A DNA stretch of 46,453 nucleotides from Rhodospirillales bacterium (GCA_028824295.1 JAPPED010000020.1:1-46453), one strand, 5' to 3'; shown: positions 32,158 through 46,453, counted from the first letter of the stretch. Made by a program: numbers and translations. Notes: a model not told the origin generated them from the sequence alone.

Positions 32158-32186
32158 TTGCCAGCAATCATATGGAATGTTATAAC
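32158..32186 (+). promoter_or_regulatory. Strong sigma-70-like promoter of the TonB receptor-PepSY module
   Basis: TTGCCA (32158-32163) and TATAAC (32181-32186), each one mismatch from consensus, are separated by exactly 17 bases and read toward the receptor at 32574. Confidence 0.7.
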
Positions 32187-32197
32187 ATAACATTTCC
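32174..32197. promoter_or_regulatory. Zur (zinc uptake regulator) operator
   Basis: The arms GGAATGTTAT and ATAACATTTCC, joined by AAC, match the proteobacterial Zur consensus (GAAATGTTATANTATAACATTTC) at all but two of its fixed positions. The site covers the -10 element of the promoter at 32158-32186, the classic position for repression by Zn-loaded Zur when zinc is plentiful. Confidence 0.82.
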
Positions 32198-32221: not shown

Positions 32222-32581
32222 ATGACGGTCCTGTCGTTCCAGCCCCGACCCCGCACCGCTTCCTGTCACGGCCGGCCACATGTGCAGGCTGAAACGGTAG
32301 CACTGAAAAGGTTCCTCCACGGTGCGCGCGGGGTCGGGTGCTGCTTCGACGGGGTATTGAGCGAGACCGCCGGTCTCACAGATCCGGCCCCCATCGTCCA
32401 CACCCTTACCCCCGATCCTGTTGGCACCCGGCGCCGTCGCCTGGACGGGGCCATCGCCACGGTCGGCGACCATGTACCCAGACCAGTCGAGAACGGCATC
32501 GCTCATATGGACCTTGCAACGCCGGTTGATCAGACGGGCGACCGGCGCGTCTTAACCACGAGAGAGAACTCGCATGCTTAA
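32222..32581 (+). CDS. Possible leader protein between the Zur operator and the receptor gene
   Basis: An open frame of 119 codons begins 25 bases after the Zur operator and overlaps the receptor start by 8 bases. A rough count of its first codons gives about three quarters G or C in third positions, consistent with coding, and it is the only frame that fills the 380-base leader on this strand. Against it, the sequence (MTVLSFQPRPRTASCHGRPH and so on) resembles nothing I know, and GAGG is only two bases from its ATG. Just upstream a perfect AAGGAG serves a three-codon mini-frame, ATG GTT TGA, at 32209-32217. Confidence 0.3.
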   Translation: MTVLSFQPRPRTASCHGRPHVQAETVALKRFLHGARGVGCCFDGVLSETAGLTDPAPIVHTLTPDPVGTRRRRLDGAIATVGDHVPRPVENGIAHMDLATPVDQTGDRRVLTTRENSHA

Positions 32582-34709
32582 CCCCGCGTTCCGGACGATC
32601 GGGACCTTATACGTACTGGTTTCGCTGGCCATTTCGCTAACAACCGAAGCAATGGCACAGGACAGCCAACCAACCGAGGACATCAATGCCCAAGATAACG
32701 GAGTGACTCTCGAAAGGATCACTGTCTATGGCACGCCCGTTGATGCTGTCAGCGAGACCGGCAGCCGCTTGGAGCTATCCGTCAGGGAAACACCGGCAAC
32801 GGTGGACATCATTCAGGGCGATACGATTCGTGAACGCATGGATACGAGCGTGATGGAGGCCGTCACCCGCTTCGGTTTTACCAATGATGCACACCATGCG
32901 AATGGTGGCCAAAACATGGCCGCCAGAGGCTTTCATGGTCAGGAGACTGTCACCAAGTTGTACGATGGCACCAATTACTATAACGCATACAACACCATTA
33001 CCTTTCCCTTCGATACTTGGGGCATCGAGCGTATAGAGGTGCTGAAGGGGCCTTCCTCCGTACTGTACGGTGAAGGCGGCATTGGTGGCGCGTACAACGT
33101 TATCCCCAAACGACCACAGCAGGAACACAGTGGTGACATGCGCATATCTACCGGTGAAGACGACACCCGTTTCATCGGTCTCGGCCTGACCGGCGGTCTC
33201 GCCGACAACCTCGCGTACCGGCTCGATTACAGTAGCAACAAGTCGGATAACTGGGTGGAGAGAGCTGACAGCAAGACCGAGATGATTTCCACCTCACTGC
33301 TATGGCAGGTCACCGAGGATTTCTCACTGACAGCACGCTACGACTATGGTGATCAGGAGCCTATGCGCTACTCTGGAACACCACTGGTCGACGGGAAGTT
33401 CCCCACTGAATTGCTGAAAAGGAACTACGATGTCAGCGATTCGGTGATCCGCCACAAAGAAAGCGTTGCCCGGATTAAAGCTGACTGGAATATCAGTGAA
33501 CGCCTGTCCATGCAGTCTGAGCTGTACCGCCTGGAAAGCGACCGTTTCTGGAAACTGGTCGATCGGTACACATACGATCGGGCGGCCGGCACGGTTACGC
33601 GCGAGTATCCGCTGGTCATTGCGCATGACGTCGAACATAACGGCTTTCGTACCAACCTTGTGTTTGATGCCGGTGACGGCGGGCGGAAGCTGAAAACCTC
33701 GGCAGGCTTTGAAATCAACGATGTAACCTTTATACGGCCAACCAATTTTGGCGGTGGAAATCCCAATGGAGTTGATTGGGGCAATGACCTTGATGTCGTC
33801 AATGCCTTTAGTTTCAACCCCGGCCTGTTCTCCGATTTGACCGATGCAGTGACCAGAACGGAAACTATTTCTGATGTCGCCCAATTCGCTGTGTTTGCGG
33901 AGGGCCAGATCGGCCTCGCCGAATCGCTGACGCTGGTGCTGGGACTGCGTCATGAGAACGTTGAAGGGGATTACAACGATATCAGCAATCCGCCGACCTT
34001 CGAGCAGAACTTGGACGCCCTGACAGGCCGGGCAGGACTGGTCTTTGATCTGAGCGACACTACGGTGCTGTACGCTCAGTACGCTACCGGTGCGACCCAT
34101 CCGACCGGAGGCATCGTGAGGGTCAACCGTACAAACCGGGACGTCGGTTTTACCAAGAGTGAGCAGGTTGAAGTCGGTATCAAACAGAGCCTGCTGGGTA
34201 ACCGCTTGCACTGGACACTGGCCTGGTTTGACATCGTCAAGAATGACCTGATTGCAGATAATCCGAATCCCAGCGAACCCCAGATCATCATTCCAGAGAA
34301 GACTTCCCAAGGTGTGGAGCTTGGCCTGACCTATGCGCTGACCAATGCCTTGCAGTTAACTGCCAATGGGACGTTGGTGGACGTGGAACGAACAGCTCTT
34401 GGCTGGCAAGTAGATGCACCTGAAGAAACCTACAACCTAGGTCTTGCTTGGGCTCCGCTGGACGAGTTGCTGGTATTGGCCGATGCCCGCTATGTCGGTA
34501 AGCGTTTTAACGTGGACAACCCGATTCCTTCGTACACAGTTGTCGACACCTCTGCACGCTGGCGCTTCAATGAGGATCTGTCCATGGCGCTGCGCGTCGA
34601 CAACGTATTCGATGAACTTTATGCTTCTACCCTCTATTACAGCGCTCCCCAGTGGCTGGTCGGCAAACCGCGCACCGTCAGCCTGACCTTGGATTATCGC
34701 TTGTTTTGA
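32574..34709 (+). CDS. TonB-dependent siderophore-type receptor under Zur control
   Basis: A 711-residue outer-membrane receptor of the siderophore-receptor type. The signal peptide runs to about residue 29 (ending TEAMAQ), and LERITVYG is the likely TonB-box region. The plug contains SVRETPATVDIIQGDTI, AARGFHGQETVTKLYDGT and GIERIEVLKGPSSVLYGEGG, the hallmark of ferric-siderophore receptors. The barrel ends VSLTLDYRLF with the terminal phenylalanine needed for outer-membrane insertion. Its GC content is visibly lower than the flanks (a 60-base sample gave 53%). The upstream Zur site suggests that the ligand is a zinc complex or metallophore rather than plain iron. It forms a module with the PepSY gene downstream. 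Confidence 0.93.
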   Translation: MLNPAFRTIGTLYVLVSLAISLTTEAMAQDSQPTEDINAQDNGVTLERITVYGTPVDAVSETGSRLELSVRETPATVDIIQGDTIRERMDTSVMEAVTRFGFTNDAHHANGGQNMAARGFHGQETVTKLYDGTNYYNAYNTITFPFDTWGIERIEVLKGPSSVLYGEGGIGGAYNVIPKRPQQEHSGDMRISTGEDDTRFIGLGLTGGLADNLAYRLDYSSNKSDNWVERADSKTEMISTSLLWQVTEDFSLTARYDYGDQEPMRYSGTPLVDGKFPTELLKRNYDVSDSVIRHKESVARIKADWNISERLSMQSELYRLESDRFWKLVDRYTYDRAAGTVTREYPLVIAHDVEHNGFRTNLVFDAGDGGRKLKTSAGFEINDVTFIRPTNFGGGNPNGVDWGNDLDVVNAFSFNPGLFSDLTDAVTRTETISDVAQFAVFAEGQIGLAESLTLVLGLRHENVEGDYNDISNPPTFEQNLDALTGRAGLVFDLSDTTVLYAQYATGATHPTGGIVRVNRTNRDVGFTKSEQVEVGIKQSLLGNRLHWTLAWFDIVKNDLIADNPNPSEPQIIIPEKTSQGVELGLTYALTNALQLTANGTLVDVERTALGWQVDAPEETYNLGLAWAPLDELLVLADARYVGKRFNVDNPIPSYTVVDTSARWRFNEDLSMALRVDNVFDELYASTLYYSAPQWLVGKPRTVSLTLDYRLF

Positions 34710-34753: not shown

Positions 34754-34780
34754 CGTTTGCCGAGGGTTGCCGGGAAACTG

Positions 34781-36265
34781 ATGCGCTGGCTTTACCTTTC
34801 TCATCGCTGGCTCGGTATCGGCATGTGCCTGTTGTTTGCCATGTGGCCCCTGAGCGGCGTGGTGATGATGTACGTCGGTTTTCCGGAACTTACCGCGAAA
34901 GAACGATATGCCGGTCTGCCTGTCCTTGACGCTGAGCACATTCGCGTCGGGCCGTCGAAGCTGTTGCAACATGCCGCTCCTGACGTTCCAGTCACACAAT
35001 TCAGATTAAGCAATGTTTCAAGCCGCCCTGCTTATTTGTTGAAACAGGCGGAACATCCCTGGCTAGGGCTCTATGCGGACACCGGTGAGTGGCTGAAAAG
35101 ACCAACAGCTGAGGATGCCGCAAGCGCAGCCAGAACGTTTTTTCAGGCTCGACAGGCTGAAGGAGAATCGATTGAAGTTCTTTACCAAGGTATGCTGGAG
35201 ATGGATCAGTGGACGGTTTCCAGCGCGTTGAATTCACACCGGCCGCTGCATAAAGTCGTATTGCATGACACTGCCGCAACCTGGCTTTATGTATCTTCTG
35301 GCACAGGTCAGGTGGTCCGGGATGTAACTCGTAGTGAACGTGTGTGGAACTGGCTTGGTGCCAACTTGCACTGGATTTATCCGGTGCAGTTACGTAAGCA
35401 CAGGACGGTGTGGGCAAATGTATTGGTTGTACTTACCCTGGTGGGACTAGCCTCGGTACTAAGCGGCAGTATTATTGGTGTCATGCGCTTGTGCGTTCGA
35501 CGGCGCTATCGGGGAAACAACGTGAGCCCCTATCAGGGCGTGATGAAACTCCATCATATTGCTGGTTTAGCCTGTGCATTTTTCTTGACGACATTTATGT
35601 TCAGCGGGTTCATGTCGATGACGCCTTGGGGCCTGTTTGATGCGAAAACCAGCTTTACTCAACAATTGTGGCGTTACCAGCAACCGGGTGATATCAGAAA
35701 TTTAGAGGCGGTCTATTCCACTGCGGAGGAAATCCGTCAACTGTTGCAACAATACAAGACTGACGATATCAAGGAATTGAACTGGCATTGGATTGCAGGG
35801 CAATCCTTGCTTGCTCTGAATCATTCTCCTGATGTGTTTCGGTCTGTGTATGGAGAGTACCAGCTTACCGAAGCCAGCATAGCTCCACAGATAAAATCGG
35901 CGATAAGCCATTTGCTCCCTGACAGCGAAGTAGCATCCATGGAGTACTTGGAAGACTATGACAACTACTATTATTCGCATCATGAACGTTATCGCCCGCT
36001 GCCGGTGATAAGGGTCATATTTTCGGACCCTGAATCGACATGGTTTCATATTCATGCACAAACAGGCCAATTACTGGGGCGGTTAACTTTCAAGAACCGC
36101 GTACAACGATGGCTGTTTAACGGACTGCACACACTGGATTTCAGTGTTCTAATCTATCACCGGCCGCTGTGGGACATCTTGCTTGTGCTGCTATGCAGCA
36201 CCGCTGCATTGTTTTCGCTGACGTCCATCACTATTGCCTGGCGACGTCTGAGGATAGATCCCTGA
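34781..36265 (+). CDS. PepSY-associated transmembrane protein (first copy)
   Basis: A 494-residue inner-membrane protein of the PepSY_TM/PiuB-like group. Four membrane spans lie at about 8-30, 208-230, 258-278 and 461-483, with two large periplasmic regions between them. Conserved histidine motifs at the membrane edge include LSHRWLGIGMCLLF, LHWIYPVQLRKH, MKLHHIAGL and RWLFNGLHTLDF. In the related ferrisiderophore reductase FoxB such residues carry heme, so an electron-transfer role at the periplasmic face is likely. ATG 34781 follows GGGAAA; a TTG at 34757 is an alternative. GC is low here (a 60-base sample gave 45%). It resembles the second copy at 36920 over its whole length. Confidence 0.87.
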   Translation: MRWLYLSHRWLGIGMCLLFAMWPLSGVVMMYVGFPELTAKERYAGLPVLDAEHIRVGPSKLLQHAAPDVPVTQFRLSNVSSRPAYLLKQAEHPWLGLYADTGEWLKRPTAEDAASAARTFFQARQAEGESIEVLYQGMLEMDQWTVSSALNSHRPLHKVVLHDTAATWLYVSSGTGQVVRDVTRSERVWNWLGANLHWIYPVQLRKHRTVWANVLVVLTLVGLASVLSGSIIGVMRLCVRRRYRGNNVSPYQGVMKLHHIAGLACAFFLTTFMFSGFMSMTPWGLFDAKTSFTQQLWRYQQPGDIRNLEAVYSTAEEIRQLLQQYKTDDIKELNWHWIAGQSLLALNHSPDVFRSVYGEYQLTEASIAPQIKSAISHLLPDSEVASMEYLEDYDNYYYSHHERYRPLPVIRVIFSDPESTWFHIHAQTGQLLGRLTFKNRVQRWLFNGLHTLDFSVLIYHRPLWDILLVLLCSTAALFSLTSITIAWRRLRIDP

Positions 36266-36399
36266 ATTTTCCCAAACCTTGATTGGAAAAGGTGATGGAG
36301 GAATTATTTTCACGCGACATAGTTGAGAGCCGGACCCATAATCTGGGTGTCGCCTTACGCTTCACTTACTCTGTCGCTGGACATCGGCTACGGCGCATC

Positions 36400-36907
36400 A
36401 AGCGTGAGGCGGGAGTCGAGCATCGGCTGCAGGGAGTCCAGGGACGTAGAGCTAGCCGCTTCCGTCCCGGCCTCCGAGCAGTGGGAAATTGCTGCCAACG
36501 CAGCCGATACCGATGCCGCGTTCAAGCGGCCGGCCAACTTCGATAGTTTCGCCGCCAACACGCCTTCAAACGTTCCGGAATGGACGTTCAACCTCTGGAC
36601 ATCGTACTGCAGTATCGCGGGAACGCCGGCGGAAGTCGGCGGGGCCGCGCGCTACGTCGGTGAGCGCTTCGGCGACGACGCGAATGCCGTGACGCTGGCC
36701 GACTACGGGATTGCGGACGCGTACGCCGCGTGGGACGGCGAGAATTACCGTGTAACAGCCTCCCTCAGTTACGTATTCGACACCGACTACGTTCCTTGGT
36801 CCGACGTGTTCTATCTGCAACAGACCGATCCCAGTGTGCCGTATGCAAATCATTTGATTCTTGGCTCCCCCCGAACCTGGGAGCTTGGCATCGAGTACTT
36901 TTTCTAG
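36400..36907 (+). pseudogene. Relic: C-terminal barrel of a second TonB siderophore receptor
   Basis: About 165 codons match only the last strands of a siderophore receptor: RDVELAASVPASEQWEIAAN, NTPSNVPEWTFNLWTSY, GGAARYVGERFGDDAN, YVFDTDYVPWSDVF and finally LGSPRTWELGIEYFF with the terminal phenylalanine. Signal peptide, plug and most of the barrel are missing. The open frame reaches back to a TTG at 36323, but nothing before about 36400 is receptor-like. Its TAG stop is part of the AGGAG ribosome site of the PepSY gene downstream, so the original receptor and PepSY genes were coupled. Confidence 0.85.
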
Positions 36908-36919
36908 GAGAGCACGCCA

Positions 36920-38383
36920 ATGAACCTGGGGACGTCCACCGTGCAGCGGATCCTCGTCCAGCTTCACCGTTGGATAGGTATCGTTCTCTGTCTAATGTTC
37001 GCCGCTTGGTTTGCGAGCGGGATCGTCATGATCTACGTGCCGTTCCCGCTGCTGCCGCTCGCCGATCGGATCGATCGGGCTGAGGTAGTCGACATAGACA
37101 GAATCCGGGTTACCCCGACTGAGGCTGTCGACCTCGCGGATTCCAGTTCAAGCGTCGGTATTCGCCTGCGGAGCCAGGATGGTCGACCGCAGTATGTGAT
37201 AGCTGACAATGGACGGGCAGTCGTTGTCCAGGCCGACACCGGCGAACTCGCCGCCACGCTCGATTCAGCCAGCGCCGGTCGAATCGCACGCAAGTTCTCG
37301 GGAATCGCTACGCAGAGCGTCCATGGTCCCGTTCAGTACGACCAATGGGTCGTTTACGGTGCCTTTGACGAACTGCGCCCATACTACCGTGTGCGTCTCG
37401 ACGATCCAGCTGGTACGGATCTTTATGTTTCTGCCATTACCGGGGAAGTGGTCCAGCGCACCGCACGGTCACAACGTAGATGGAACTACGTTGGCGCCGT
37501 AGTCCATTGGATTTACCCGACCGTGATCCGCAAACATTGGGCGCTTTGGGACCAACTGGTCTGGTGGGTGTCCCTCGCAGGCATCGTGTTGACGCTCGCC
37601 GGAATCTACCTCGGTATCCTGCGATGGCGGTCCGCCGCCCGTAGCGGTCAACGTGGCCTGTCGAGCCCGTACCGTGGCTGGATGAAGTGGCACCACATCG
37701 GCGGTCTGACCATCGGCGTGGTTGTCCTGACCTGGGTCTTCAGCGGCTGGCTGTCGATGGATCACGGACGGCTTTTCTCGACGCCGTCACCCACACGAGG
37801 TCATGTTGAGCGCTTCACCGGGATGAGTGTACGGGCCGCGGCCGATATGATTCGGATCGACGCGCTTGCCGATACTGCTCCGTTCTCCCATGCGGAAATT
37901 GGCGCGTTTGCCGGGTCGCCGGTACTCAGAACGGCGGGTCCGAATGGACCTAAGTTATGGCGACTGTTTGATAACCAACTGCAGGAATATCGGCCGACCA
38001 CTGCCGAGGTCTCGGCCGCTGTGGGCAATGCCTGGCCCGGCTACGAACCAGTCGATTCCTATGTCTTGGGCGAAAGTGACATCTACACAAGTTTGCGCAG
38101 TGGGTCGCTTCCACCTGACACAGTTCGTATTGTCCTTAACGATCCCGCCGATACGTGGGTACACGTACATCCGACACGAGCCGAGATCATTTCGATCATG
38201 GATCGTAGCCGGAGAGTGTACCGGTGGTTGTTCAACGGATTGCACAGCTTCGATTTCCCGGGAATCGTTGATCGCCGGCCGCTGTGGGACGTGCTGATGA
38301 TCGCGCTGTTGAGTTGCGGCTTTGTTTTCTGCGTCACCGCGATCGTGATCGGATTTCGGCGAATCAAACAGACCACACGCTGA
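36920..38383 (+). CDS. PepSY-associated transmembrane protein (second copy)
   Basis: A 487-residue inner-membrane protein and paralogue of the one at 34781. Spans lie at about 16-38, 209-233, 260-281 and 453-477. The same histidine motifs recur: LHRWIGIVLCLMF, VVHWIYPTVIRKHW, MKWHHIGGL and RWLFNGLHSFDF. Late in the second periplasmic region VRIVLNDPADTWVHVHP resembles the PepSY strand pattern. AGGAG 11 bases before the ATG overlaps the stop of the broken receptor gene. The likely job is reduction or handling of a metal-ligand complex at the periplasmic face. With its receptor reduced to a fragment, it may now serve the intact receptor at 32574. Confidence 0.88.
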   Translation: MNLGTSTVQRILVQLHRWIGIVLCLMFAAWFASGIVMIYVPFPLLPLADRIDRAEVVDIDRIRVTPTEAVDLADSSSSVGIRLRSQDGRPQYVIADNGRAVVVQADTGELAATLDSASAGRIARKFSGIATQSVHGPVQYDQWVVYGAFDELRPYYRVRLDDPAGTDLYVSAITGEVVQRTARSQRRWNYVGAVVHWIYPTVIRKHWALWDQLVWWVSLAGIVLTLAGIYLGILRWRSAARSGQRGLSSPYRGWMKWHHIGGLTIGVVVLTWVFSGWLSMDHGRLFSTPSPTRGHVERFTGMSVRAAADMIRIDALADTAPFSHAEIGAFAGSPVLRTAGPNGPKLWRLFDNQLQEYRPTTAEVSAAVGNAWPGYEPVDSYVLGESDIYTSLRSGSLPPDTVRIVLNDPADTWVHVHPTRAEIISIMDRSRRVYRWLFNGLHSFDFPGIVDRRPLWDVLMIALLSCGFVFCVTAIVIGFRRIKQTTR

Positions 38384-39022
38384 GCCGCGAACCCGGCCGA
38401 AGTTGGCTTCCAGCGAGAGCCCCTAGGCGCGACCCGTGACAGGGATGCTCGCTGCCCCGGAGGGCAGACTACTGAAACGGTGGAAGAGAGGGAGGCCGCC
38501 ATGCGGGAGGCTGGCGCCGAGCGGCAGCAGCTGGGTTGACGGTGGGTGCCGCGTCGTCGAGTTGGCGCACTCTGCCAACTGGCGGCACCCACGACGTCCA
38601 GTTGCAGCGACGGTCCGTCCGGATACTGGCTATGCATGGATGCAGTTCCTCGCTTCCGACTAGGCCGCACTTTGTAGTTTTTGCGCTCGCACTGCACCCA
38701 CCGGTCGCGGTTGAACAGGACCGCGCAACTGTCCGGCAACGTCGACGCCATCCATTTGCCTCGCACCCTGATAATCGCGCGCCGCGCCGCGTCGAGACCG
38801 AGTCGGTCGTGTGCGGACCCCCGCATGCGCTTGCCGTCGATGTCTACGCCGCGTCGAATTCCAAATCACTTCACATGCCGGGGTGAATCGAGATTCCCCA
38901 GGCGGCACGCACCCTTCAGTTCGCGGGACTTCGACGGCCCTGCAGTCTTTCCGTCGGCGCCCACCTGCGAACCCATCGGAGAGGTGTCGCCTATGCCCCG
39001 GCGCAACTTGCTTGGGCACAGG
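38384..39022. other. Long convergent interval with a nested hairpin
   Basis: The interval lies between converging PepSY and methyltransferase genes. At 38542-38592, GTGGGTGCCGC pairs perfectly with GCGGCACCCAC, and inside it GTTGGC pairs with GCCAAC around a 7-base loop. On the minus strand at about 38600-38826 a protein-like frame with GC-rich third positions (STLPDSCAVLFNRDRWVQCE) may be an unidentified relic. Confidence 0.5.
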
Positions 39023-39721
39023 TCAACCGTCGGTCCGCCAATCGATCAGAGCGACATCGCCCCAAGTGCCTGGCGCACGCTCCACCGAATACAGCCGCAG
39101 GCGGTGGCAAATCTCCAGTTCCCGCAGGACATCGGCGAGAGCATGGGCGCGCTCGCGCTTCAGGAGGCGCCCGTTGAGCTGGACGTGCAGTGGCGGCGCG
39201 TAGGGGGCACCGACGCTCTGCACCAGGACGACGCACCGGGCCGCAAAGCGGTGCATCTTCGACAACGAGGTCGCAATATCTTCCATGCGATAGAAGGCGT
39301 TGCATCCGAACACGACGTCGGCCTCCAACTCCGGCGCATCCTCCCAGCTGCAGGGCCAGAGCCGGGGCGCCTCGCTGGATCGTGCCTCCTCCCAGCGGTG
39401 CAGAAACTCCGTCCGCATGGCCAGCGAGGGCTCGACCGCAAAGATCTCGCCAACATGGTTGGCGATCCGCCGGGTGAACGAACCGGATCCGGACCCGATC
39501 TCAAGCACTCGGTCGCGGGGCCGCAGCAGTGGCAGGAGGTCAGTGATCAGCACATCGGCGTGCTGCGCCAGTGGGCTCCGCTCGTCGTAGTCTGGCGCAT
39601 AGCCGCGCCAGAAGGCTTCCTCAGCCGCCTGGTCACGCCAACGCTCGTCGCGTTCGGCCTTCTGGGCGAAGGCCATTTTCCAGAACGCCGACGGTGTCAG
39701 CTCGCGGGCCGGTTCCCCCAT
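39023..39721 (-). CDS. Class I SAM-dependent methyltransferase
   Basis: A 232-residue methyltransferase. Motif I is DRVLEIGSGSGSFTRRIANH, the ribose-binding acidic residue follows in IFAVEPSLAM, and VVFGCNAFYRMEDIATSL corresponds to motif IV. The N-terminal FWRGYAPDYDERSPLAQHAD resembles small-molecule methyltransferases found beside metal-uptake genes. ATG 39721 has a perfect ribosome site (GGAGGGGGAG); a longer start at 39778 would overlap the ABC ATPase gene. It is the last gene of the minus-strand uptake cluster, 43 bases after the ATPase. A role in modifying the transported ligand is an inference from position. Confidence 0.82.
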   Translation of the reverse strand: MGEPARELTPSAFWKMAFAQKAERDERWRDQAAEEAFWRGYAPDYDERSPLAQHADVLITDLLPLLRPRDRVLEIGSGSGSFTRRIANHVGEIFAVEPSLAMRTEFLHRWEEARSSEAPRLWPCSWEDAPELEADVVFGCNAFYRMEDIATSLSKMHRFAARCVVLVQSVGAPYAPPLHVQLNGRLLKRERAHALADVLRELEICHRLRLYSVERAPGTWGDVALIDWRTDG

Positions 39722-39764
39722 CTCCCCCTCCTCGTCTTTTTGACGGCAGGCAGGCAACTGCCGA

Positions 39765-40589
39765 TCAACCGAGGTCATCCCGGCCAGGCAGCAACGCCCG
39801 TCCCCAAGACGTCGGGTACGTCTCGAAGCGAACGCCGAACACCTTCGCGAGAATCCCGGAGTCCAGGATGTCCTCGTTGGTTCCGCAGACCACGATCCGG
39901 CCTTCAGCCATGACCGCTATGCGATCGGCGAAGCGCAGCGCGAGGTTGAGATCGTGCAGCACGACAAGCGATGCGACATCGGTCAAGCAATGGCGCAGGT
40001 ACTGCATGGTTCTGAGCTGATGGGCGGGGTCCAGACTGGCAATCGGTTCGTCGGCGAGCAGCAGGCTAGGCCTTGCAATGAGTGCCTGCGCGAGCAGCGC
40101 ACGGGCGCGCTCGCCGCCCGACAGCGAGGCGAATTGGCGGTCCAGCAGCCCGGTCAGCTCGAGATCCTGAAGCAGACCGCTCGACTCGTCTGCCGTATCG
40201 CCGGCCGCGGGTACGGGTGGTCGAATCGCGCTCCATCCGAGTGCCGCCAGGCCACGTTGCCGGCCGATGTCCAGGAGGTCGGCGACGCTCAGTTCCCAGT
40301 GCGGTGCGAAGAACTGCGGGAGATAGGCGATGCGGCGCGCCCTTTCTTCCGCCGGAAACTCGGCCAGCCGGCGACCTTCCAGTTCGATCCCTCCGCTCCA
40401 CGCCATTTCGATGCCGCCGAGACATTTGAGGGCACTGCTTTTGCCGGCCCCATTCGGGCCGACCAGTGCGAGCAGTTCCCCTGCGAATACCTCGAGTGCG
40501 ACGCCGTCCAGCACCGGGCGACGGGCTTTGGTGAGACGCAGATCTGACAAGCGCGCAAGCGGGTCGGGTTTGGCGGGCGTTTGGGTCAT
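39765..40589 (-). CDS. ABC transporter ATPase, iron-siderophore/B12 type
   Basis: A 274-residue ATPase of the FepC/BtuD/HmuV family that powers the FecCD permease encoded just upstream. Walker A is GPNGAGKSSAL, the Q loop YLPQFF, the signature ASLSGGERARALLAQAL, Walker B SLLLADEPIASLDP and the switch histidine VVLHDLNLAL. All are intact. Its ATG overlaps the permease stop (ATGA, 40586-40589), so the two are translationally coupled. Confidence 0.93.
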   Translation of the reverse strand: MTQTPAKPDPLARLSDLRLTKARRPVLDGVALEVFAGELLALVGPNGAGKSSALKCLGGIEMAWSGGIELEGRRLAEFPAEERARRIAYLPQFFAPHWELSVADLLDIGRQRGLAALGWSAIRPPVPAAGDTADESSGLLQDLELTGLLDRQFASLSGGERARALLAQALIARPSLLLADEPIASLDPAHQLRTMQYLRHCLTDVASLVVLHDLNLALRFADRIAVMAEGRIVVCGTNEDILDSGILAKVFGVRFETYPTSWGRALLPGRDDLG

Positions 40590-41611
40590 TGACGGCTGCG
40601 CCTTGCCAGAATGAGCATGAAGAAGGGCGCGCCGATCAGGGCGGTCAACAAGCCAAGCGGAATTTCCGCCGGCGGAAGGAGACTGCGCGCCAGACCATCA
40701 AGCAGGGCCAGGAGAATGCCGCCCACCAGGGCCGAGGCCAGAATGAGCGGGCCGTGGCGCGGCCCAAGCGTCCAGCGCACCAGGTGCGGCACGATCAGAC
40801 CGACGAAGCCGATCGTGCCGCCCCAGGTGACCGCGAGCGCGACGAGGGCGGAGGCGAGCAAGGTCGCCACTACGACGAAGCGCTCGACGGGGAGCCCCAT
40901 GTTGCGCGCCACGTCGTCCCCGAGGCCGAGGACATCGAGGCCGTGGGCAAGTCGGCGCGCGAACACCAGCAGGAGCAGGCTCGCCAGGGCGATGTAGCCC
41001 AGCTCGCGCCAGAAGGGGGTCTGGATGCCGCCAAGCGTCCACGACAGCACGACCTGGAGGCTGATCGTCTCGTCGGCAAGCGCCAGCATCAGGTAGCTGC
41101 GCAGGGCGCCGAGGAATGCCGCCATGGCGACGCCGGCCAGGAGCAGTCCGGCGGTGTCTCGCACCTGGGCGATGCGAGCCAGCAGGAGGACGGCAAGCGT
41201 TGCGCCGAAGGCGCCCACAAACGACAGGATCGGCAGCAGAAGCAGCGGGGAGACTGCTTGGAAGAGCGCGAGCCCCGGGACCAGCAGCGCGAGGGTGGCA
41301 CCGAGCGCGGCACCCGGCGCGGTCCCGATCAGGAAGGGATCGGCCAGCGGGTTGCGGAAAATGCCCTGGAAGATCGCCCCGGCCGCGCCGAGCAACCCGC
41401 CGACCACGAAGGCGGTCAGCACGCGCGGCAGCCGCCACTCGAACAGCAGACGGTCCAGGGGATGATCGCCCGCCGCCGGCCGGAGCAGATCCAGCAATCG
41501 GCCGGGGCCGAGCAATTCCGGCCCGAGCATCATGGCGAACCCGATGGACAGGAGCACCGCGGCAACGAGAGCTGCCAGCCAGCCGGTCGGGATGGCAAGG
41601 ATGCGCGTCAA
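40586..41611 (-). CDS. FecCD-family ABC transporter permease
   Basis: A 341-residue inner-membrane permease with about ten membrane spans, which passes iron-siderophore, heme, cobalamin or another metal chelate into the cytoplasm. Family motifs include RLPRVLTAFVVGGLLGAAGA, IFQGIFRNPLADPFLIGTAP with GAALGA, and GTIGFVGLIVPHLVRWTLG with GPRHGPLILASALVGG. Its start overlaps the stop of the binding-protein gene (41608-41611) and its stop overlaps the ATPase start, giving a tight binding protein-permease-ATPase set. Confidence 0.94.
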   Translation of the reverse strand: MTRILAIPTGWLAALVAAVLLSIGFAMMLGPELLGPGRLLDLLRPAAGDHPLDRLLFEWRLPRVLTAFVVGGLLGAAGAIFQGIFRNPLADPFLIGTAPGAALGATLALLVPGLALFQAVSPLLLLPILSFVGAFGATLAVLLLARIAQVRDTAGLLLAGVAMAAFLGALRSYLMLALADETISLQVVLSWTLGGIQTPFWRELGYIALASLLLLVFARRLAHGLDVLGLGDDVARNMGLPVERFVVVATLLASALVALAVTWGGTIGFVGLIVPHLVRWTLGPRHGPLILASALVGGILLALLDGLARSLLPPAEIPLGLLTALIGAPFFMLILARRSRQ

Positions 41612-42543
41612 GTCCGGCGGGTCGCAACGAGATCGGGGTGCAGCGCACGGGCGACGCTGCGCACGCCCTCGACGACGCGGGGCCCCGGGATCAGGACCAG
41701 GCCACGCGGGATCGCATCGACCCGCCCGGCGGCGACCGCCGGGATACCGTTCCAGTGGGGGCGCTCGCGAAGGGCAGCGACATCCGCCTCGCTACCCGCA
41801 ACGAGGATATGGTCGGGATCCGCTCGGAACACGGCCTCGCCGCTCACCTGCGAGAGACTCGTGCGGTTGCCGAAGACGTTGAGCCCCCCGGCGTGGCGAA
41901 GGATGTCGTCGGTGTAGGTGCCGGGCCGGACCGAGAGGTAGCCGGCACGGCCGGCCGCGCCGGTCTCGAAGTAGACCCGCTTGGGCGGCCGCGACGCGAA
42001 GCTCTCGGCCAGTGCCGAAAGTTCGCCTTCGATCGTCTGGATCAGCGCCCGCGCCTCCCGCTCGCTGCCGATCGCGCGCCCGACCAGAGCGATGTTGGCC
42101 AGGATGCGCGCCAGCGTCGGATGCTCGAGGACGATTACCGGAACGCCAGCCAGGCGCATCGGCCGCAACAGCCGTGCGGCCGCGTGCCGCGAAGGTGTCA
42201 CGATGACGAGGTCGGCGCCCAGCCGGGCGATGATGTCCGGGCTGAAGCCGATGCGGTTGCCAATGCGCGGCCGGTCGAGGACCTCCGGCGGATAACTGGT
42301 CAGACCGTCGATCGCGACGATGCGCCCGGCGCCGCCAAGTGCCGCAACGATCTCGGTGTTGCTGGAGAACACCGGCACGATGCGGGCAGGCCGGCGGGCG
42401 ATACGGACGCGCCGGCCCAGCGCGTCGGTCACCTCGCGCGGCCAGCCGCCGTGCGACCCCGCCATCACCGCACAGGGTGCGGTGATGGCTACCGCGAGGG
42501 TCCCGGCCGCGGCCGGCAGCAAGCGGCGTCGAGTGAGCTTCAT
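41608..42543 (-). CDS. Periplasmic metal-chelate/cobalamin-type binding protein (FecB/BtuF-like)
   Basis: A 311-residue class III binding protein. ATG 42543 gives MKLTRRRLLPAAAGTLAVAI, an export signal with three arginines that could be Tat-type. The mature part has the expected two lobes: TDALGRRVRIARRPARIVPV and FSSNTEIVAALGGAGRIVAI in the first, a long linking helix, then FETGAAGRAGYLSVRPGTYT and DPDHILVAGSEADVAAL in the second. The ligand is not readable; cobalamin, heme and siderophores are all used by relatives. It lies 7 bases after the receptor gene and overlaps the permease gene, so receptor, binding protein and permease form one operon. Confidence 0.88.
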   Translation of the reverse strand: MKLTRRRLLPAAAGTLAVAITAPCAVMAGSHGGWPREVTDALGRRVRIARRPARIVPVFSSNTEIVAALGGAGRIVAIDGLTSYPPEVLDRPRIGNRIGFSPDIIARLGADLVIVTPSRHAAARLLRPMRLAGVPVIVLEHPTLARILANIALVGRAIGSEREARALIQTIEGELSALAESFASRPPKRVYFETGAAGRAGYLSVRPGTYTDDILRHAGGLNVFGNRTSLSQVSGEAVFRADPDHILVAGSEADVAALRERPHWNGIPAVAAGRVDAIPRGLVLIPGPRVVEGVRSVARALHPDLVATRRT

Positions 42544-42550
42544 CAGGACA

Positions 42551-44719
42551 TCAGAAGGTGACCCTGATGCCGGCGGAGAAGAAGCGCCCGCGCATCGAGT
42601 TGCCCCGGCCGCCGTTGGAGTTCGAGGGGTCGGAGATGTAGGGCTGTTCGTCGATCGCGACGAACATCGGGTGCTGGTTCTTGTCGAGCAGGTTGGTGAT
42701 CCCACCGTAAACGGTGACCCGGTCAGTCACGTTGTAGTGGCCACGCACGTTGAAGACCCAGTAGGCATCCTTGCGGTGCACGAAGTTCCTGGCCGGCTCG
42801 GCGGTCGGCAGCAGTCTTTCCTCGGTATCGTAGTAGAACGGCCCGTACAGCAAGCTGACCAGACTGAAGCCCCAACGCTCGCGCCACTCGTAGCCGAGCC
42901 GCAGGGCAGCCAGGTATTCGTTCAACCGCTGCAGTTTGTGACCATAGGGGCCACTGTCTCCGCGGTCGATGCCGTCGGCCAGCAGCTTGAAGTTCCAGGT
43001 ACCGTCGGCGCCGATGGTGAGACGTTGGTCCGCCAGGCCGAGCCAGGGCGCGGCGTCAAGCTGGGCCTGCACCTCGATGCCTTGGACTTCCGCATCGCCG
43101 TCGGCGTTGAGGAACTGACGAATGTCGTCAACGTACGGTCCGGTGGTAATCCGACCCTTGATCGTCTGATCGAAGACGGCGGCGTCGAAGAAGAGGTTGC
43201 CGGGCGCGTACGTGAGGCCGACTTCAAACTGCTCGCTCTCCTCGGCATCGAGGTCCGGGTTGCCGCGGGTAATGCGATCCGGTGTCAGCACCGCTGAGGA
43301 CTCGCCAGCCAGCTCCCGGCCCGTCGGCGCGCGGAAGCCCGTGGCATAGCTTGCCCGGGCCTTGAGGCCGGGCAACACCGCGTAGGCCAGGCCGACACCG
43401 TAGGTCGTGCCGTCGAAGGTGCGGTCGGGTTCGCCGCTCAGGTTGAGGTTTGGCGTGTCCCTTCGGCTGAGCTCGTTGCGGGTATACCGCACGCCTGCCC
43501 GCCCGGTGAGCCGGTCATCGAGGAAGGACTGGGTGAGCTCGGCATAGCCTGCCGTCAGCAGGTTGTCCTCGTTGTTGTCGTAGTGGGCGACTTGCGAGAC
43601 CGGTTCGCCGCTGACGGAGGTGCGTGTGCGAGTGCCGCGCAGCTGGGATGACTCGCCGTCGAAGCCCACGAGCAGCCGCGTGGTCTCGGTCAGTTGGAAT
43701 TCCGGCGTCAACCTCGCCCCGTATGCCGTGAGTTCCCGGCGAAGGTTGTCCGTATCGAATCCTCTGACTTCGGAGCCCCAGTGGAAGGAGTCGACGTCAC
43801 GGAAGGCATAGACCTGGGCATTCAGGTCGATGCCCAAATCATCCAGCACGCCGGCGTAGGACAGGTCGACGGAATTGTTCCAGCGGTCGTCGTAGTTGTC
43901 GTAGTCCCAGGAGGAGCCGCGAAACCCCGCGTCATACACACCGTGGGTGCGCAAAGTGAGATTCAGCCACTGGCTGGGGCCGAGGTCCCAGTTGAGGGCG
44001 GCGAGTGCGCCGCGCCGGTCCACCGCGGTGTTGATCTGTTTCGAGGCACCGGAGCCGCCGTCGAAGTCGTCGCTGGTCATACCGTTGACTCCGACATAAC
44101 CGGCGAGATTCCCGGCGACGGCGCTACCGTACTCCGCCTTCGCCCGGCCGAACCCGTAACTGCCGGCTTCGATCGAGGCCGTGCCGCCCGAGACGCTCCG
44201 GCCGTCGCGGGTGATCAGGTTGATGACGCCGCCCATCGCCTGGTTGCCGAATGCGACCGAGGCGGGGCCACGAATAATCTCGATGCGATCAAGCTGGTCC
44301 GGCGAGAGCTTCGACAGGTTCGCCGTGCCCGCCCGGCGGCCGTTCAGCAGCACCAGCACCTGGCCCCGGTAGTCGCGGCCCTGGCCGTCGCCGCGTGCGC
44401 CACGCATGGTGATCGAGGTCTGGCCCGGGGTCCACTCGCTGAAGAAGGCGACGGCGCGCTCCCTCATCAGCTCGGTGACCGAGTTGTCGAGCGATTCCCG
44501 CAGATGTTCCGAGTCGACCACCTGAACCGTGCTGGCGATCTTGCTGAGCGGCTCAGGGCGGCCAAGTCCGGTTACGACGACTTCGTCGAGGCTGATGATT
44601 CGGCTGTCGGCCTCCGGTGACTGCGCCCAAGCGGACATCGGATTCGTCAGCGCTGCCATCAGTAAGGCGGCCACCACGACGGGCAACTTGTCGCGATACA
44701 TACGGTAAATTGCGTTCAT
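42551..44719 (-). CDS. TonB-dependent receptor, BtuB/CirA-like
   Basis: A 722-residue outer-membrane receptor. ATG 44719 has GGGAG upstream and starts a normal signal peptide (MNAIYRMYRDKLPVVVAALL, ending SAWAQ). The TonB box is probably LDEVVVTG. The plug has ASTVQVVDSEHLRESLDNSV, MRGARGDGQGRDYRGQ and RIEIIRGPASVAFGNQAMGG, and the barrel ends FFSAGIRVTF with the terminal phenylalanine. The long reading to 45211 is rejected. The 286 bases before it hold no recognisable gene, and I found no cobalamin riboswitch there. Operon partners suggest import of a metal chelate or corrinoid across the outer membrane. Confidence 0.92.
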   Translation of the reverse strand: MNAIYRMYRDKLPVVVAALLMAALTNPMSAWAQSPEADSRIISLDEVVVTGLGRPEPLSKIASTVQVVDSEHLRESLDNSVTELMRERAVAFFSEWTPGQTSITMRGARGDGQGRDYRGQVLVLLNGRRAGTANLSKLSPDQLDRIEIIRGPASVAFGNQAMGGVINLITRDGRSVSGGTASIEAGSYGFGRAKAEYGSAVAGNLAGYVGVNGMTSDDFDGGSGASKQINTAVDRRGALAALNWDLGPSQWLNLTLRTHGVYDAGFRGSSWDYDNYDDRWNNSVDLSYAGVLDDLGIDLNAQVYAFRDVDSFHWGSEVRGFDTDNLRRELTAYGARLTPEFQLTETTRLLVGFDGESSQLRGTRTRTSVSGEPVSQVAHYDNNEDNLLTAGYAELTQSFLDDRLTGRAGVRYTRNELSRRDTPNLNLSGEPDRTFDGTTYGVGLAYAVLPGLKARASYATGFRAPTGRELAGESSAVLTPDRITRGNPDLDAEESEQFEVGLTYAPGNLFFDAAVFDQTIKGRITTGPYVDDIRQFLNADGDAEVQGIEVQAQLDAAPWLGLADQRLTIGADGTWNFKLLADGIDRGDSGPYGHKLQRLNEYLAALRLGYEWRERWGFSLVSLLYGPFYYDTEERLLPTAEPARNFVHRKDAYWVFNVRGHYNVTDRVTVYGGITNLLDKNQHPMFVAIDEQPYISDPSNSNGGRGNSMRGRFFSAGIRVTF

Positions 44720-45005
44720 GTTGTTCTCCCGATTGTTGAAATTCTGTTGCAACTGCTCAGGAAGCCCCTCCATGGCGCTGCCACTGGAGCCATCTCGGTC
44801 CGGCTGTGGTGATCGACGGGTTCTCTCTTGTCCCGGCGACACGGCGAAACCGACGATGGGCCCGGATGACATCACGGCAGGCGTTTCAGTGGTCGCCTGC
44901 ACTCGTGCTGCGTCCGACCAAGTGGGGAGCAACGAGATCCCCATACTTCGACGCGTGCGGTCGGGGACGCTCCACGCGACGGTGTGGCTCGGCGGAAGCA
45001 TGCCT

Positions 45006-45458
45006 TCACCCGGAGACATCAGCGCCCTCCACGTATGGCGGCACACGCCCGACGATGCTCGCGCGGAGTGGCTTCGGACGTCGCTCCCTTGGCATGAACC
45101 CGTCTCTGGTGCCGATGTAGAGCGAGACGCACTCCACGATGTCACGTGTGCTTTTGCCCGGGTGCTGATCCGCAAAGAGGTACGTCCACGCCCCGGGTGA
45201 TGTGAGCGCAATTCCGCAGGGGCGCGGGCATAGGCTCAGGCACGCGGCGGACCTGACCTCCACGTGGTGACCCAATGGGCTCTCATGGAACGTCGCGCGA
45301 AGCTCTCGATAGAGTTTGGCGCCGGCTCGATTCTCCCGTGGCTCACGCGGAGAGCCAGGCGCCCTACAGGACGTGCACACGTGAAGGACGGATGAACGAC
45401 AGGTGCCCTGAGCAATCGGCGGCCCTTTCGCCAAGACCGAAGAGGCAGTCTCGGTCAT
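45006..45458 (-). CDS. DUF1636 family cysteine-rich protein
   Basis: A 150-residue protein with the DUF1636 pattern: HVCTSCR (Cys28 and Cys31), then CLSLCPRPCGIALT (Cys73, Cys77 and Cys81), then WTYLFADQ and RASIVGRVPPY at the end. The cysteines could bind an Fe-S cluster or a metal, as in thioredoxin-like ferredoxins. The family is often encoded with cobalamin or metal-uptake genes, which is the setting here. AAAGGAG five bases before the ATG is an excellent ribosome site. It lies 101 bases after the ZnuA-like gene. Confidence 0.85.
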   Translation of the reverse strand: MTETASSVLAKGPPIAQGTCRSSVLHVCTSCRAPGSPREPRENRAGAKLYRELRATFHESPLGHHVEVRSAACLSLCPRPCGIALTSPGAWTYLFADQHPGKSTRDIVECVSLYIGTRDGFMPRERRPKPLRASIVGRVPPYVEGADVSG

Positions 45459-45500
45459 GCTGACTCCTTTGCCAGGCGCCGGGTGACCTCAGCCCGGGCG

Positions 45501-45520
45501 GTGATAACAATCTGTGTCAC
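45501..45520. promoter_or_regulatory. Palindrome upstream of the DUF1636 gene
   Basis: GTGATA and TGTCAC, one mismatch apart as an inverted repeat, enclose eight bases. It lies 43 bases before the DUF1636 start and could be an operator, but it does not match the Zur consensus. Confidence 0.25.
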
Positions 45521-45559
45521 GCGACTGTCAGTCCCGGCGTTCGAAGGCTGCGCCGAGCC

Positions 45560-46453
45560 TCACGATGCCAGCGCCCGCGCGAGCGTCGTCGCGTTGTGCC
45601 GCATCATGTCGAGGTAGGTGGGGGCCGGGCCGTCCGGGCCGGACAGCGCGCCGGGATAGAGCGTGCCGCCTATGACGGTGCCCGTCTCGTCGGCGATTCG
45701 TTTCAGGAGGCGGGGGTCCGCAACGTTCTCGATGAAGACGGCCCGAATGCCCTGTTCCCGAATCTGCCGGACCAGACGGACAACATCGTGCGCGGAGGAC
45801 TCCGACTCGGTGCTGAGCCCCTGCGGTGCGAGGAAGGTCAGCCCATAGTCGCGACCGAAATACTGAAACGCGTCGTGGGAGGTAACGATGGTCCGACTCC
45901 CGACGGGAAGCCCGGCAACAATCCTGCTGATTTCCGAGTCGAGGGCCTCAAGCTCATTCACGTAGGCCTCACGATTGCGGTAGAACGCGCTGGCGTTCCC
46001 TGGATCGGCCTTGGCCAGCGCCGCGGTGATGCTGTCCACGTACACTGCGGCATTGCCGAGGCTCTGCCATGCATGGGGGTCGAGGGCGCCGTGATCATGG
46101 CCGTCGTGATCATCGCCCTCGGTGTGCGTGCCGTGGCCGGCTTCGCCGTCGCGAGCGTGCGTGTTGGCGCCGTGCTCGTAAGTCATCGGCTCGATGCCGT
46201 CGGTTGCCACCACCTGGACACCGCGGAAGTCCGAAGCCTCGATCAGGCGATCCAGCCAACCTTCAAACTGCAACCCGTTGACGACAAGGATTTCCGCCTC
46301 GCTGATGGCGCGCGCATCGGCCGGGGTCGGCTGGTACACATGCGTATCCCCGTCGGGGCCGACGAGCGTCGTGACCGCGACGTGCTCGCCACCGATCTGC
46401 TTCACCATGTCGCCGAGGATCGAGAAGGTGGCGACCACCGGGATCGGGCCGTC
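45560..46453 (-). CDS. znuA: ZnuA/TroA-family zinc-binding periplasmic protein (5' partial)
   Basis: The frame runs to the window end, so the start and signal peptide are outside. Visible are 297 residues of a cluster A-I metal-binding protein. The metal-binding histidines lie in DTHVYQPTPADA, LDPHAWQSL and IVTSHDAFQYFG, with the final acidic ligand in IENVADPRLLKRIADETG. Between the first and second lies a histidine- and aspartate-rich loop (DDHDGHDHG and neighbours), typical of zinc-specific ZnuA rather than manganese-specific relatives. It delivers Zn2+ to a ZnuBC permease, whose genes are not in the window. It is probably the first visible gene of the minus-strand uptake cluster. Confidence 0.9.
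   Translation of the reverse strand, partial: DGPIPVVATFSILGDMVKQIGGEHVAVTTLVGPDGDTHVYQPTPADARAISEAEILVVNGLQFEGWLDRLIEASDFRGVQVVATDGIEPMTYEHGANTHARDGEAGHGTHTEGDDHDGHDHGALDPHAWQSLGNAAVYVDSITAALAKADPGNASAFYRNREAYVNELEALDSEISRIVAGLPVGSRTIVTSHDAFQYFGRDYGLTFLAPQGLSTESESSAHDVVRLVRQIREQGIRAVFIENVADPRLLKRIADETGTVIGGTLYPGALSGPDGPAPTYLDMMRHNATTLARALAS

Follow-up and report, generated by a model that had tools for sequence, protein, structure and literature searches.

A BtuFCD-like importer of a cobalamin-riboswitch family in a candidate Zur-controlled zinc operon of a Rhodospirillales bacterium

The 46,453-nt stretch analysed here (the window) comprises the entire contig C20 from the 3.02 Mb genome of a Rhodospirillales bacterium (the host, G000), and at its far end it carries a row of genes for a zinc-type binding protein, a DUF1636 protein, a TonB-dependent receptor, a BtuF/BtuC/BtuD-like importer and a methyltransferase. 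We read this row, with a confidence that we consider evenly balanced, as a zinc-starvation operon controlled by Zur, in which an importer from a family otherwise regulated with cobalt and B12 now belongs to the zinc regulon. The complete operon would consist of zur, an aztC-like gene, DUF1636, the TonB receptor, the importer genes and the methyltransferase gene, and would be expressed when, zinc being scarce, Zur leaves a palindromic operator. The receptor and the FecCD-type ATP-binding cassette (ABC) importer would then carry a metal-ligand complex over both membranes, and the ZnuA/AztC-like protein would capture free periplasmic zinc. The importer itself would descend from a family whose operons in other genomes are under cobalamin-riboswitch control, beside cobalt/B12 genes. 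A metal-ligand complex is the most likely cargo, a zinc chelate being the first candidate and a cobalt chelate the second, whereas B12 is disfavoured. The features considered are as follows.

45560..46453, minus strand: ZnuA/AztC-like zinc-type binding protein with a His-rich loop, 5' end missing (PF01297, 293.5 bits)
45006..45458, minus strand: DUF1636 protein of the zinc-associated clade, thioredoxin-like ferredoxin fold (PF07845, 110.4 bits)
44720..45005, minus strand: gap of 286 nt between DUF1636 and the receptor, about 90% conserved (three congeners)
42551..44719, minus strand: TonB-dependent receptor, hemin/siderophore-type barrel (plug and barrel domains)
41608..42543, minus strand: BtuF/FecB-type binding protein (PF01497, Peripla_BP_2)
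40586..41611, minus strand: FecCD-type permease (PF01032, 264.4 bits)
39765..40589, minus strand: ABC ATPase (ABC_tran)
39023..39778, minus strand: class I S-adenosylmethionine-dependent methyltransferase (weak Pfam matches)
32176..32189, no strand assigned: Zur-box-like palindrome AATGTTATAACATA, 5' of a neighbouring TonB receptor (32574-34709)

Gene calling and Pfam matches recover all seven genes on the minus strand, transcribed in the order ZnuA-family protein, DUF1636, TonB receptor, PF01497 binding protein, FecCD permease, ABC ATPase and methyltransferase, with intergenic distances of 101, 286, 7, −4, −4 and −14 nt. An initial annotation had described this one-strand row as having small gaps or overlaps, which is accurate except for the 286 nt between DUF1636 and the receptor. 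The contig stops at 46453, with no sequence readable past it, which leaves the ZnuA-like gene incomplete and places the start of the operon off the contig. Relatives were sampled from about 1,270 genome searches and a plasmid collection. The full row is retained in two congeners, G002 (locus L009) and G006 (L011), the DNA of the window and of G002 being 89.8% identical across 7.6 kb; this retention argues against a chance arrangement. Genome searches gave no match to DUF1636 or the methyltransferase in G001, G003 and G005, nor to the binding protein in G003 and G005.

The zinc side of the locus is best seen in the congeners. The ZnuA-like protein scores 309.9 bits against the NCBIfam model for AztC, under the cut-off of 350, and directly before its gene G002 carries a Fur-family gene for whose product Zur is the best curated match (111 bits, the cut-off of 167 not being reached). 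The start of this zur bears AATGTTATAACGTT, a TGTTATAACA-type palindrome, and at the matching place G006 has AATGTTATAACATC, behind which only remnants of zur and aztB are left (L011 17842-18398). In G004, zur precedes DUF1636 at a contig end, with a ZnuA-like remnant between them (L022 603-1317) and a box identical to that of G002; in G006 and G004, then, the upstream part of the operon decays and DUF1636 persists. The initial annotation had suggested a search for Zur or cobalt-regulator sites upstream of the ZnuA-like gene; a Zur-type palindrome stands there in G002, together with zur, and in G006. The host has its second zur on contig C16 with the box TATGTTATAACATA; after it come genes for a further AztC-like protein and for a COG0523 GTPase. 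The exact core RTGTTATAACAY occurs at two sites in the whole host genome (C16 zur and position 32177 of the window) and at none in a reversed control. An AztA-AztB-AztC row is found on host contig C6, aztA and aztB being absent from the window operon. Earlier studies firmly document a palindromic Zur motif and zur operons that regulate themselves, as well as Zur-controlled TonB receptors and COG0523 proteins (PMC6103462, PMC5387054). Since the promoter of the window copy is cut off with the contig and did not turn up in the rest of the assembly, we infer its Zur control from the congeners, where Zur would bind the operon palindrome. Two candidate links were rejected: the nearest zur copies on other host contigs (C8 and C16) do not join the window operon, and a palindrome-like stretch between the ZnuA-like gene and DUF1636, TTGTTATCAC, is absent from the congeners.

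The DUF1636 protein provides a further line of evidence. It meets the PF07845 gathering score (cut-off 31.6 bits), and its structure model (pLDDT, the predicted local distance difference test score, of 84) has a thioredoxin-like ferredoxin fold, the best structural match being PDB 9jn8, titled thioredoxin-like ferredoxin, from Rhodobacter capsulatus; this agrees with an earlier prediction (PMC4520260). In the tree it falls within a 15-row clade (support 100/98). The members of this clade neighbour Zur, AztA, AztB, AztC and/or COG0523 proteins in one genome of the Pseudomonadales and in Porticoccaceae, Halothiobacillaceae, Binatia, Vicinamibacteraceae and Myxococcota; none of their loci yielded a cobalamin riboswitch. 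Outside the clade a different picture emerges, as DUF1636 heads cobW-cobN operons or else lies in front of metE or of a TonB-ferredoxin-FecBCD operon, and a cobalamin riboswitch lies shortly upstream at 10 of the 12 loci scanned and about 1.3 kb upstream at an eleventh. Taken together, the gene company, the zur genes and palindromes of the congeners and the placement of DUF1636 make zinc control of the operon likely, as judged from sequence. One clade locus, L052, has the perfect palindrome TTATGTTATAACATAA about 50 nt 5' of an operon for an ATPase, a binding protein and a FecCD permease. A second, weaker palindrome lies about 97 nt 5' of DUF1636 and counts little, because the stretch is AT-rich and about one chance match is expected at the loose threshold used.

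The importer genes of the row seem to have another origin. The initial annotation had called the receptor BtuB-like, a label not borne out by the models: its best NCBIfam match is a hemin-receptor family (186 bits), and against the BtuB model TIGR01779 it scores 118.9 bits, far below the cut-off of 599.7. Receptor, binding protein and permease all remain under the BtuB, BtuF and BtuC cut-offs; for permease and ATPase there are also matches to BtuC/BtuD and corrinoid ATPase models, at 197 and 162 bits and again short of the cut-offs, and the best PDB match of the binding protein is a heme-binding protein. The nearest homologues of the receptor-binding protein-permease-ATPase set, mostly 39-60% identical, are found at eight loci in six genera (G188, G285 and G060, of one genus, G093, G551, G579, a Variovorax megaplasmid and a Bartonella plasmid), with identities of 39-47% for the receptors, that of Variovorax being more distant, and of 47-55% for the binding proteins. 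In the permease tree the window genes lie inside a 12-member clade together with the riboswitch-linked permeases (support 98/97), apart from E. coli BtuC, the host BtuC encoded on contig C13 and S. meliloti CbtK. As these relatives are nearly all switched by B12, the data suggest that a cobalt/B12-type importer was taken over by the zinc regulon. A stronger version appears to us possible though somewhat doubtful: both DUF1636 and the TonB-BtuFCD set, elsewhere parts of the cobalamin-riboswitch regulon, would have been captured by the zinc regulator, and the present cargo of the importer would be a zinc chelate, or cobalt standing in for zinc.

A number of observations weigh against a zinc operon of this kind. 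Each of the eight closest TonB-BtuFCD loci is preceded, on its own strand, by a cobalamin riboswitch (73-128 bits), and the G579 operon extends past a COG0523/CobW protein as far as CobN; only on a Providencia plasmid, whose set is more distant and has a fragmentary receptor, was no riboswitch found. The binding-protein motifs are invariant between riboswitch-linked and window forms, suggesting an unchanged ligand class of cobalt/B12 type, and with the riboswitch linkage this makes the ancestral role of the family look cobalt/B12-related. Unchanged motifs would be equally expected if the ligand stayed the same and regulation alone changed, so that a change of cargo along with the regulator is hypothetical. 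A structure model of the binding protein intended for pocket comparison had a pLDDT of 38.6, from three near-identical sequences, and was discarded. Neither zur nor the Zur box of the operon lies on the window contig, and no host contig joining them to the operon was found. The host genome also lacks a nicotianamine-synthase-like gene for making an opine-type zincophore, so that any zincophore the host uses would have to be of a different type or be supplied by neighbours. Finally, there is the 286-nt gap, across which the genes would still be co-transcribed: no terminator-like or promoter-like site was found in 44500-46453, and none that is terminator-like separates the ZnuA-like gene from the receptor, although the initial annotation had considered a transcription break between the ZnuA-like gene and the rest. 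A decayed riboswitch within this gap was also rejected, as a permissive Rfam search of 44650-45080 with E values up to 10 gave one poor unrelated match and nothing related to cobalamin. The Rfam scan of the window gave no match at all, in agreement with the earlier statement that no cobalamin riboswitch is visible, and none was found at the G002 and G006 loci.

How the host obtains corrinoids bears directly on the alternatives. Its sole cobalamin riboswitch (128.8 bits) lies on C13, followed by BtuB, BtuF, BtuC and BtuD and then by cobalamin salvage genes, as named from their translations, the receptor having BtuB as its best model (256 bits, also under cut-off). None of the seven genomes of the window genus has CobN; each of the six riboswitch-linked genomes tested has it. 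Accordingly, the host appears to import corrinoids through a locus other than the window operon and, lacking CobN, to need no cobalt for making corrins aerobically de novo. The absence of a riboswitch, the zur and palindrome of the congeners and the separate C13 locus together make a zinc-regulated role other than B12 uptake plausible. The earlier proposal of a zinc or cobalt chelate as cargo is in part upheld, by the zinc regulation and the separate B12 locus, and in part called into question, by the riboswitch control of the closest relatives and the unchanged motifs.

A second corrinoid importer, for B12 or cobinamide, now under zinc control, is an unlikely competitor. The riboswitches before the eight nearest relatives, the BtuC/BtuD and corrinoid ATPase matches (under cut-offs), the constant motifs and the need of a host without CobN for external corrinoids all speak for it; however, the host already has a riboswitch-controlled BtuB-BtuFCD system with salvage genes, the window receptor is not BtuB by model score, its neighbours are of zinc type, and the relatives live in genomes with CobN, where cobalt rather than B12 may be the need. 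This last point leads to cobalt-chelate import, as the relatives may carry out, with cobalt replacing zinc during shortage, to which we assign a low probability. CbtJKL, a BtuF-like importer under a riboswitch, does carry cobalt in S. meliloti (PMC7689651), the G579 operon reaches CobN by way of CobW, and DUF1636 elsewhere heads cobW-cobN operons. Yet the window genus has no CobN, cobalt-for-zinc use by the host is speculation, and CbtJKL itself is not the same system, since its permease occupies a separate branch and the window binding protein has no BLAST match to CbtJ (E 1e-3).

The row could also be two adjacent units, a Zur-controlled zur-aztC-DUF1636 group and a receptor-BtuFCD-methyltransferase group with its own promoter and an iron or heme chelate as cargo. 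The well-conserved 286-nt gap would suit such a division, as would the hemin-receptor and heme-binding matches of receptor and binding protein. We nevertheless consider it improbable, as the gap is devoid of terminator-like or promoter-like sites, the gene order is identical in three genomes, and the relatives of the receptor-BtuFCD set are linked to riboswitches and not to iron.

Compared with known systems, the Zur-controlled operon that we favour combines parts of several. It shares the receptor, binding protein, permease and ATPase subfamily with the riboswitch-controlled TonB-BtuF-BtuC-BtuD operons, but those have the riboswitch and CobN-bearing genomes (six tested), whereas the window has zinc-type neighbours and neither of the two was found. 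With AztABCD/ZnuABC zinc operons it has in common Zur, an AztC-like protein and the zinc-type DUF1636/COG0523 company, from which it differs in lacking AztA/AztB and in adding a TonB receptor, a FecCD-type importer and a methyltransferase. The BtuB-BtuCDF system for B12 uptake belongs to the same broad families, the window proteins falling under its model cut-offs and no riboswitch being found. To CbtJKL the resemblance consists of a BtuF/FecCD-type importer and, for the family, a cobalamin-riboswitch regulon (PMC7689651), and to the opine-zincophore importers of a FecCD-type importer that serves zinc acquisition, in some clusters beside a methyltransferase (PMC7438024), the host genome differing in its lack of a nicotianamine-synthase-like gene.

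As the initial annotation proposed, the methyltransferase may act on the ligand, perhaps after uptake. Among the samples searched it is restricted to the genus, and no relative was found in the plasmid collection. Five of the eight riboswitch-linked loci also encode a class I methyltransferase-like protein, there between riboswitch and receptor; that of the window stands instead at the 3' end and is of a different subfamily, being only distantly alike (23% over 94 columns in a profile comparison), so that parallel recruitment may have occurred.

The specificity of BtuF/FecCD importers is often inferred from their regulation. If our reading is correct, the metal regulon, and perhaps the metal, has been switched inside one transporter family, which stands either under a B12 riboswitch or, apparently, under Zur, with the presence or absence of CobN shifting in step. 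The two forms are a natural pair for asking whether cargo tracks regulator, and the uncharacterised DUF1636 ferredoxin-like proteins gain two clean classes, one linked to B12 and the other to zinc.

Some further observations concern DUF1636 and importer loci in other genomes. The DUF1636 proteins at L039-L051, which come from Alphaproteobacteria, Binatia, Vicinamibacteraceae and Myxococcota, are 69-93% identical. This points to recent transfer across phyla, perhaps inside sponge communities. At L052 (8506-16725, Pseudomonadales) a dihydroorotase-like gene is divergent from DUF1636. On a Trichormus plasmid (L030 9453-17104) a cobalamin riboswitch precedes DUF1636, a TonB receptor, a ferredoxin, a binding protein, a permease and an ATPase; the FecCD permeases and ATPases of such cyanobacterial plasmids are closest to S. 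meliloti CbtK/CbtL, pointing to a candidate cobalt importer with a ferredoxin partner. On the Bartonella plasmid (L066 2294-10527) one cobalamin riboswitch precedes DUF1852, a short methionine synthase, a methyltransferase-like gene and the TonB-BtuFCD set.

Within the window, the palindrome at 32176 lies about 385 nt before the second TonB receptor and is kept in G002 (L009 4080). A 43% identical homologue of this receptor is found downstream of a DUF1636-Zur-AztABC-COG0523 row at the Porticoccaceae locus L054. The receptor is followed by two PepSY-TM proteins (34757-38383), between which lies an apparent C-terminal fragment of a TonB receptor (36323-36907). Just 3' of the methyltransferase, positions 38410-38668 repeat, with 78% identity, the 3' end of zur and the region between zur and aztC as they are in G002; as G002 has no such copy at this place, a local rearrangement seems to have taken place.

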